DNA from: Mucispirillum schaedleri ASF457
GTDB taxonomy: Bacteria; Chrysiogenota; Deferribacteres; Deferribacterales; Mucispirillaceae
Length of the DNA: 64,000 nt
Reading direction: 5' to 3'
NCBI RefSeq assembly: GCF_000487995.2
Contig: NZ_CP097562.1
Span: 434,001-498,000 of the forward strand
The translations under genes were made by a program, and so were the position numbers. The notes beneath the pieces were generated by a model. It was not told the origin of the DNA and did not search any database. It saw only the letters and a program-made list of their open reading frames with translations. Every line of letters begins with the position of its first letter. Within the stretch, counting starts at the first letter, position 1. Below, piece by piece: positions 55,648-58,494 of this stretch.

Positions 55648-56329
55648 CTCAAATGAAAAAATTACATTATTCTCAAATATGCAGATGTGGTATCATAAAC
55701 ATATCATTCATTTTATGATGATATTTATTATTACAGGGCTTCCATTAATATCCCATACATTCTCATGGGTTGCTTACATTATAGGTGTGCCTGTATCTGT
55801 ATTTTATTCTAATGTTGAACCAATATATGTTGGTATTCAAGTTTGCAGAGTAATACACAGAATTACTGCTGTATTATGGATAGTTACAAGCATACCATTT
55901 GTTTTAACTATGCTTTTTACTAAATGGGAGCTGGCTTTAAGAAAAAGAAAAGATGAATCATGGACTGCTTATATAAAAGAAGAATTGCAGGATATGAAAA
56001 CTATGTATATAGATTTCAACTATCCAAAAAGAACAGGGAAATATAACTTAGGTCAAATCGCTGCCGGACTTGCAGTTATTGCATTTAGCTTAGTTATGAT
56101 AGTAACAGGTTTTATCCTATGTTTTAGAGTAGATTTTTCAACTACTACTGTAAGCATTATGAGATTATTCCACAGCATAGGATTTTTAGTATTTGTTATT
56201 TTCCTTATTATCCATATTTATCTTGCAGTTCATCCTGTAAACAAAGCAGGATATAATGCAATGTTTAGAGACGGCAAAGATGATTTGGAACATGCCAAGA
56301 AAAAACATCCAGGAATGTTTATAAAATAA
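55640..56329 (+). CDS. Cytochrome b membrane anchor of the molybdoenzyme
   Basis: A 229-residue, four-helix di-heme cytochrome b of the FdnI/PhsC/hydrogenase type. Candidate heme ligands are His in WYHKHIIHFMMIF, His in CRVIHRITAVLW, and two in RLFHSIGFLVF and IIHIYLAVHPVNKAG. AAGGAG lies seven bases before ATG 55640; earlier in-frame ATGs are too close to that site. It would exchange electrons with menaquinone. Its last base is the first of the Rieske gene's ATG (TAATG). Confidence 0.9.
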   Translation: MSNSNEKITLFSNMQMWYHKHIIHFMMIFIITGLPLISHTFSWVAYIIGVPVSVFYSNVEPIYVGIQVCRVIHRITAVLWIVTSIPFVLTMLFTKWELALRKRKDESWTAYIKEELQDMKTMYIDFNYPKRTGKYNLGQIAAGLAVIAFSLVMIVTGFILCFRVDFSTTTVSIMRLFHSIGFLVFVIFLIIHIYLAVHPVNKAGYNAMFRDGKDDLEHAKKKHPGMFIK

Positions 56330-56718
56330 TGCAGGTATTACTATCTAAACTAAAAAGGCGCAGTTTATTAAAACTTTTATGGCTTGCACCTTTTGCAGCA
56401 CTTTATAAATATTTGATACCAAAAGTAAAAAAAGAAAATTTTATATCTGTCCCCCTTGCAGCTCTGCCTTTCAAGGGGGCATATCTTATTAAAGATAAAC
56501 ATACTGGAATAATAAAAAATAATGAAGGTATAAAAGTATTTAGTATATCATGCACACATTTAGGCTGTGTTTTAAATGTAGAAAATGATAAATTTATATG
56601 CCCATGTCATGGCAGTGTATTTGATTTAGAAGGCAGTGTTTTAAAAGGCCCTGCACTAAAACCTTTAAAACATCTTGAATATAAAATTGAAAATGAAAAT
56701 ATTATAGTGTATATATAA
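56329..56718 (+). CDS. Rieske [2Fe-2S] protein
   Basis: A 129-residue Rieske protein: an N-terminal basic patch KRRSLLK and a membrane helix (about 12-27), then the cluster-binding boxes CTHLGC (about 79-84) and CPCHGS (about 95-100). Both Cys and both His ligands are present, and the two outer cysteines can form the stabilising disulfide. It is shorter than most Rieske subunits. Position directly before a cytochrome b6 gene identifies it as the Rieske subunit of a bc/b6f-type complex rather than of a dioxygenase or arsenite oxidase. Confidence 0.93.
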   Translation: MQVLLSKLKRRSLLKLLWLAPFAALYKYLIPKVKKENFISVPLAALPFKGAYLIKDKHTGIIKNNEGIKVFSISCTHLGCVLNVENDKFICPCHGSVFDLEGSVLKGPALKPLKHLEYKIENENIIVYI

Positions 56719-56720
56719 TT

Positions 56721-57338
56721 ATGTTTAAAGAATTTATAAAGCACTTATTTCCTCGTGTTACACTTAAAAAAAATCTGCGTTTTACTTATACATTATGTCT
56801 AGGCGGTCTTTCTTTTACTGCATTTATTATGCTTGTAATATCAGGTGTGCTGCTTGCAGTTTATTATATTCCAGAGCCTTTGCAGGCTTATAATTCCATT
56901 ATCTTTATAGAAGAAAATGTTACTGGCGGTAAATATATTAGAAACCTGCACAGGTTTTCAAGCAATGCTTTTTTAATACTTATGTTCCTGCATGTTCTGC
57001 GTGTTATATTAACAGGTGCTTTTTTAAGCAGAAAATATAACTGGATTATTGGTCTTTTCCTGCTGTTTTTAAGTATTTTTACAGGCTATACAGGATATCT
57101 GCTGCCAATGGACCAGCTTGCTTACTGGGCTACACAAACAGGTGCAGAATTAATTAAAATACTGCCTTTTGGAGATTATATTTATAATATTATGGTTCCA
57201 GATACTATTGGCGGAAAACTTTGTTTAATAAGATTTTATACTCTGCATATTATTATACTTCCTGTATTAATTTCCACCCTTTCCTTTATACATTTTTTTA
57301 GAGTAAGGCGTGATAAAGGGGTGCTGCCATATCTATAA
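56721..57338 (+). CDS. Cytochrome b6-like subunit
   Basis: The N-terminal four-helix half of cytochrome b in a quinol oxidising complex. The two bis-His heme sites are His77/His176 and His91/His191. The spacings (13 and 14 residues between paired positions) follow the b6 rather than the mitochondrial pattern. Cys26 in LCLGG matches the Cys of b6 that carries the extra covalent heme ci. The protein is 205 residues and ends with RRDKGVLPYL, a b6-like terminus. It lies two bases after the Rieske gene and is followed by a subunit IV-like frame. Confidence 0.93.
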   Translation: MFKEFIKHLFPRVTLKKNLRFTYTLCLGGLSFTAFIMLVISGVLLAVYYIPEPLQAYNSIIFIEENVTGGKYIRNLHRFSSNAFLILMFLHVLRVILTGAFLSRKYNWIIGLFLLFLSIFTGYTGYLLPMDQLAYWATQTGAELIKILPFGDYIYNIMVPDTIGGKLCLIRFYTLHIIILPVLISTLSFIHFFRVRRDKGVLPYL

Positions 57339-57751
57339 TAAATAAAAAAGACTTATATATAAAATCAAATCCATATTTTTTTAAAATTATAGCTGTATCT
57401 GCTGTTATACTTATACTTTTTATAATTATCGGCTCTATATTTTTTGATGCTCCACTTGAAGAAAAAGCTGAGCCTTATAATGCTCCAAATCCATCTAAAT
57501 CTGCATGGTTTTTATTATGGACTCAGGAACTTGCATCTTATGGCAGCTGTTATATTTATATTATTGTATTTTTATTTATTTTTTATATGATAATGCCTTT
57601 CTTTGTTAAAAAAGCACCAGAATATGCTGTATGGTTTAATTCTGCTTATAAATGGATAAATATAATATCAGTTATTGTTTTATTTGCAATTCTTGCTTTA
57701 ACAATAACTGCCTATTTTTTCAGGAAAGAATATTGGCTGTTAGGATTTTAA
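57329..57751 (+). CDS. Cytochrome b subunit IV-like protein with non-canonical start (probable ATA)
   Basis: A 140-codon frame in the -1 phase relative to cytochrome b6. It has three hydrophobic segments (about 18-40, 70-92 and 108-128) and the subunit IV-like stretch APNPSKSAWFLLWTQELASY, corresponding to the PEWY/APWYFL region at the quinol site. No ATG, GTG or TTG exists between the in-phase stop (57314) and the first helix. The best start is ATA at 57329, five bases after AGGGGTG; ATA codons at 57335 and 57338 are alternatives. A -1 frameshift from cytochrome b6 near the GGGG run is possible. It overlaps the cytochrome c start by 19 bases. Confidence 0.7.
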   Translation: MSIINKKDLYIKSNPYFFKIIAVSAVILILFIIIGSIFFDAPLEEKAEPYNAPNPSKSAWFLLWTQELASYGSCYIYIIVFLFIFYMIMPFFVKKAPEYAVWFNSAYKWINIISVIVLFAILALTITAYFFRKEYWLLGF

Positions 57752-58494
57752 TAATATTTATTTTAAGTTATAATATTTTATATGCTGCTGATAATAAATG
57801 TATATTATGCCATGAAAATGTGTGTAAAAATAAATCAGATAACTGCATAATGTGCCACAGGGGTAACAGCTCTACTTCTAGAAAAGATATTGCTCATTAC
57901 AAACTGATTAAAGGAAAATATGCGTTATTTACTGATAAAAACAGCATAAAAACACAACAAGGTATAAAAATAATAGAAAATGCAGCCTGCATAAGATGCC
58001 ATAATATTGGCAAAAGCGGTGCAGCTCTTGCTTCTGATTTAAACTCTGCTGTTAAAAGGCTCAGCACTAATGAAATAATAAAAGCTATAAAAGAGCCTGT
58101 TATAAATATGCCACTTTTCCAGTTTAATGATAAATATATGGAATCATTAATTACTGGTATTTATTATTATACCATACCAGAAAACAGTAAATCCATAACA
58201 CAGATAGTCCACTTTCAAAATAATGAAGCTGGTAATAATATATTTCAAAAAAAATGTGGCACATGTCATAAAGCATTAACAAATACTGGTGCATTAGGCA
58301 CATCAGAAGATGCCCCAAATTTAAGCGGACTTGCAAAAATATATCCAGATTATCTAAATAGAAACCACTGGAATAAAACTTTACTTGATAAATGGCTTAC
58401 TAACCCTAGAAGCCTTAAAAAAAATGCTGTTATGCCAATAATAGAACTGACAGATAAAGAAAAAACTGCTGTTATTGATACACTAATAGAATAA
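57733..58494 (+). CDS. Tetraheme cytochrome c
   Basis: An exported c-type cytochrome with four heme-binding CxxCH motifs: CILCH (Cys23), CIMCH (Cys38), CIRCH (Cys86) and CGTCH (Cys175). The first two are close together as in multiheme proteins; the last two each begin a class I-like domain with candidate Met ligands (NMPLFQ, AVMPIIE). I take TTG 57733 as the start: it has AGGAAAG upstream and gives a good signal peptide ending ILYAAD. Upstream in-frame ATG 57652 would lie inside the subunit IV-like gene and give a poor signal. It is probably the electron acceptor or output subunit of the Rieske/cytochrome b complex. Confidence 0.87.
   Translation: MAVRILIIFILSYNILYAADNKCILCHENVCKNKSDNCIMCHRGNSSTSRKDIAHYKLIKGKYALFTDKNSIKTQQGIKIIENAACIRCHNIGKSGAALASDLNSAVKRLSTNEIIKAIKEPVINMPLFQFNDKYMESLITGIYYYTIPENSKSITQIVHFQNNEAGNNIFQKKCGTCHKALTNTGALGTSEDAPNLSGLAKIYPDYLNRNHWNKTLLDKWLTNPRSLKKNAVMPIIELTDKEKTAVIDTLIE

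Follow-up and report, generated by a model that had tools for sequence, protein, structure and literature searches.

The locus analyzed here lies in the window, i.e. the whole stretch of 64,000 nucleotides of Mucispirillum schaedleri ASF457 DNA under study, and is a quinol oxidation complex locus with the gene order Rieske / b6 / IV / cytochrome c, in which cytochrome b is split in two halves (Table 1). The genes of the Rieske protein and of the cytochrome b6-like half (hereafter b6), recognized by PF00355 and PF00033, respectively, are located directly 5′ of that of the subunit IV-like half (hereafter subunit IV), in one operon. The subunit IV frame, which is -1 relative to b6 (56721-57338), follows an in-phase TAA stop (57314-57316) and is open from 57317 to 57751; it comprises 140 codons from 57329 to 57748 and includes the stretch APNPSKSAWFLLWTQELA. 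However, no ATG, GTG or TTG is present from this stop up to ATG 57587, i.e. before residue 85, and the only standard start codons of the frame (ATG 57587 and ATG 57593) lie deep inside it. The first-pass annotation had described a subunit IV-like cytochrome b half devoid of a standard start; this gene is real and intact, and its frame, its stop, its 140 codons and the above stretch are all as claimed. Gene callers that need standard starts would indeed miss it, as had been anticipated, since the first in-frame ATG is at 57587. Downstream, the TTG of the cytochrome c gene (57733-57735) is kept in the congeners and in G011, which belongs to the same family but to another genus; the longest ORF of cytochrome c, from ATG 57652, does not give the start of the gene.

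Table 1. Genes, candidate start codons and Shine-Dalgarno site of the split cytochrome b locus (positions in the window).
Feature	Position	Strand	Details
Rieske iron-sulphur protein	56329..56718	+	PF00355, E 1.2e-10
Cytochrome b6-like N-terminal half of cytochrome b	56721..57338	+	PF00033, E 2.4e-35; stop TAA 57336-57338
Shine-Dalgarno site AAAGGGGTG inside b6	57315..57323	+	Predicted -7.8 kcal/mol with canonical 16S tail; identical in L030
Alternative ATA start	57329..57331	+	7 bases after GGGG of the Shine-Dalgarno site; within b6 CCA TAT codons (Pro-Tyr)
ATA replacing ancestral ATG	57335..57337	+	Overlaps b6 stop TAA (57336-57338); ATGA here in six other Mucispirillum loci and most other split loci
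Further in-frame ATA, third possible start	57338..57340	+	Directly after the 57335 ATA; from sequence
Subunit IV-like C-terminal half of cytochrome b	57335..57751	+	138 codons from inherited start, plus stop TAA 57749-57751; homologous to six congeners and to the fused cytochrome b of other Deferribacterota
Cytochrome c, haem-binding motifs	57733..58494	+	Start TTG 57733, Shine-Dalgarno AGGAAAG; overlaps subunit IV end

The strongest evidence for the identity of subunit IV comes from families f6 and f7, in which the same sequence forms the C-terminal part of a single fused cytochrome b. Subunit IV is 31-43% identical to the C-terminal part of the fused cytochromes b L016-L026, in which PF00033 matches the N-terminal part. 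The gene is present in seven Mucispirillum genomes, in G011 and in several other families of Deferribacterota, with identities of 71-84% to six other Mucispirillum species and of 40-51% to the other families; a chance frame can thus be dismissed. All 18 invariant columns of an alignment of 31 relatives are kept in the window. The AlphaFold model (pLDDT 81) predicts three long helices of the membrane type, at residues 13-36, 71-90 and 103-129 (numbered from 57335), in agreement with the three hydrophobic segments initially noticed, and a shorter one (58-69). The 13 PDB structures matched by Foldseek all belong to cytochrome b6f subunit IV or to cytochrome b, with weak E-values (0.6 or worse); VIA-align gave a Z of 7.0 over 119-126 residues, and the PDB search with the sequence of subunit IV gave no usable match. 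Subunit IV of the window shares with cytochrome b6f subunit IV (PetD), or with the C-terminal half of cytochrome b, its position after b6, its size, its three main predicted membrane helices and, putatively, its fold. Unlike these proteins, it has no Pfam match. Since no Pfam match was found either for canonical split relatives with a normal start or for the C-terminal part of the fused relatives, this probably reflects a gap of the library for this branch. We assume that KSAWFLLW occupies in the window the place of the PEWY motif of other cytochromes b. In genus g2 of the same family, none of four genomes (G010, G012, G013 and G014) has a match to subunit IV, and the complex appears to have been lost in this sister genus.

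The six other Mucispirillum loci all read CTATGA or TTATGA at the junction between b6 and subunit IV, where the window, with the same frame relation, reads CTATAA. In the congeners, the ATG of subunit IV shares bases with the TGA stop of b6 (ATGA overlap). Most other split loci of Deferribacterota, as well as contigs of Geobacter, Acidobacteria and Bdellovibrionales, likewise combine the -1 relation with an ATGA or GTGA overlap. In an ATGA pair, the upstream stop is overlapped by a standard start codon (ATG, GTG or TTG), whereas the window has ATAA. Since all congeners carry ATGA, the inherited start is at 57335 and the comparison indicates that a single G-to-A transition at 57337 is derived, having changed ATG into ATA for subunit IV and TGA into TAA, silently, for b6; the derived base is read in one assembly, from one genome of the species. 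Compared to L030, the window also has a 9-base in-frame deletion three codons downstream of the junction. No compensating change was seen near the junction of the window.

The first-pass annotation had placed the start at ATA 57329, and suggested looking for an ATG there in related genomes. Its reading of an AUA start is the best supported one, but the ATG of the congeners aligns with 57335, overlapping the b6 stop, and not with 57329. It had also correctly noticed AGGGGTG five bases before ATA 57329. However, this ATA is uninformative alone: its equivalent is present in three congeners (L002-L004) that keep an ATG at 57335, because b6 has a conserved Pro-Tyr spelled CCA TAT or CCA TAC. We therefore rejected 57329 as the inherited start, this ATA being dictated by the coding of b6 and coexisting with ATG. 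Initiation at 57329 is nevertheless possible, given that it stands at a more favourable distance from the Shine-Dalgarno site than 57335, which is located 13 bases from this site, i.e. farther than usual. From the stop of b6 on, the sequence is predicted to be unpaired.

The explanation that accounts best for these data, and that we consider as probable, is termination-reinitiation at an AUA codon, aided by the Shine-Dalgarno site and with a reduced yield. Ribosomes finishing b6 would be held by AAAGGGGTG just upstream, and the initiator tRNA would restart most likely on AUA 57335, or on AUA 57329 or 57338; the product would be a normal subunit IV, made in lower amount. Both components of this mechanism have precedents. 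Termination-reinitiation at ATGA pairs is widespread and was demonstrated in E. coli and Haloferax (PMC6728339). The window resembles these pairs by its four-base stop-start overlap, its Shine-Dalgarno site within the upstream gene and the assembly of the products in one complex (PMC6728339), but differs from them since its overlapping start is no longer AUG, GUG or UUG. AUA starts were found by ribosome profiling (Ribo-Ret) in infC, ccpN and citZ of S. aureus; reporter assays were done for ccpN and citZ, and, where tested, these starts reach about 10-30% of AUG, with extended Shine-Dalgarno motifs (PMC13009471). The likeness to the three S. aureus genes lies in the replacement of AUG by AUA behind a strong Shine-Dalgarno site, and citZ is furthermore a metabolic gene whose AUA is characteristic of one strain lineage (PMC13009471). 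Unlike in S. aureus, the putative start in the window overlaps an upstream stop. In the same genome as the window, infC (L052, G000:C1, about 2044300) is devoid of ATG, GTG and TTG codons 5′ of the part encoding the IF3 N-terminal domain and carries GGAGGTGTATCATA; therefore, this organism probably makes use of near-cognate initiation. The sequence GGAGGTGTATCATACCG of infC suggests that translation starts at AUC or AUA behind GGAGGTG, and such a near-cognate start would probably agree with the AUU or AUA starts of infC elsewhere.

Reinitiation at AUA has to be weighed against a recent start-loss mutation, after which subunit IV would no longer be usefully made, the bc-type complex being lost in the lineage or in the sequenced strain. 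This is conceivable, since non-AUG starts are usually costly in yield (PMC13009471) and since the four g2 genomes devoid of any match indicate that loss happens in the family. In a codon model applied to six species (window branch versus the rest), omega of subunit IV is also raised on the window branch (0.198 versus 0.052 elsewhere); it is above the background (p=0.005) but also below 1 (p=0.005). However, omega of b6, which has a normal start, is raised on the same branch as well (0.148 versus 0.036, p=0.004), whereas the same model shows no rise for Rieske. Since the rise of b6 is similar to that of subunit IV, there is no decay peculiar to the latter. Subunit IV is constrained on the window branch, although omega, calculated on the whole branch, does not date the change of start. 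Furthermore, no stop or frameshift occurs in its 138 codons, the invariant residues are kept, and the genome, in which this cytochrome b is the only one, encodes a haem-copper oxidase that would draw on its complex. We thus regard start loss as unlikely. A pseudogene resulting from decay was rejected because stops and frameshifts are absent and omega is below 1, and redundancy through a second gene copy because no other cytochrome b was found in the genome.

A sequencing or assembly error at 57337, the true sequence being ATGA, would concern a single base in a single assembly, at a position where every congener has a G. However, this assembly consists of one contig (2,347,083 bases) with 99% completeness. 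Among about 87 homologous frames compared in the stretch that is syntenic with G003, subunit IV is the only real gene devoid of a standard start (two other flagged rows look like non-coding frames), and 77 of 83 genes align with G003 over their full length, the remainder differing mostly near an end. With only one start missing in about 87 frames, neither careless assembly nor a general use of AUA explains the case, and we rejected poor assembly on the same ground. In addition, the adjoining difference from the congeners is the clean in-frame deletion mentioned above, and a standard start of subunit IV is missing in two other species as well; an error is therefore very unlikely. The first-pass annotation had also proposed a ribosomal -1 frameshift from b6 at the AAAGGGG run, giving a fused cytochrome b. 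Fused cytochromes b do exist in other families of Deferribacterota, and G011, which is also startless, has an in-phase A_AAG_GGG in b6. In the window, however, the end of b6 is read GAT AAA GGG GTG CTG CCA TAT CTA TAA, so that the run is out of phase and the overlap contains no in-phase slippery heptamer. The slip would have to fall in 57317-57338, a stretch in which no pair of tRNAs finds a match one base back, since AAA would land on TAA and GGG on AGG. Furthermore, the same run is common to congeners that have an ordinary ATG. A frameshift is therefore hardly credible here. The known motif for bacterial adenosine-to-inosine editing is UACG; editing of A57337 was set aside since this motif is absent.

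Loss of the standard start of subunit IV was found in three of the 15 Deferribacterota species that have a split pair (the window, G011 and G025); sampling around G232 for additional split pairs yielded only two genomes. The b6 stop has changed to TAA in all four of the window, G011, G025 and G018. In G011 (L012:1468-1530), GTA stands at the place of ATG, the b6 stop is TAA and no AUN codon is near. The end of its b6, GA[A AAG GGG]GTG, forms an in-phase slippery heptamer, subunit IV is read in frame -1, and about 22 bases after A_AAG_GGG lies a hairpin of 7 perfectly matched base pairs (AGAGGAC-GCG-GTCCTCT). A fusion by frameshift is thus possible in G011 and, unlike in the window, would be a live option there. 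In G025 (L013), whose genome is 64% complete, the match to subunit IV (1501-1911, - strand) is in the +1 frame relative to b6; b6 ends with CTC CCC TAT ATA TAA, and the nearest standard starts are TTG codons located 80 bases upstream, inside b6. In its sister G018, the ATG is shifted 6 bases downstream. The three startless cases may correspond to tolerated losses with restart on other codons, to separate mechanisms or to errors in draft genomes. A broader proposal would be that restart after b6 needs no standard start codon in Deferribacterota, the Shine-Dalgarno site and the stop positioning the ribosome, which would restart on any codon present at this place, or that some lineages frameshift to a fused cytochrome b; we consider this as rather improbable.

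Overall, the subunit IV of the window is best read, from its sequence and that of its relatives, as a further gene that is initiated at a near-cognate codon, here within a coupled pair. If translated, it would provide a respiratory complex with a subunit naturally started at AUA and, since the exact position of its ancestral ATG is known, one could measure what the use of AUA costs in coupled translation. The loss of the start codon of one gene in three species makes the tolerance of reinitiation for non-AUG codons testable. Furthermore, a single base can conceal one half of cytochrome b from gene callers, and the organism could therefore be scored as devoid of a quinol:cytochrome c complex.
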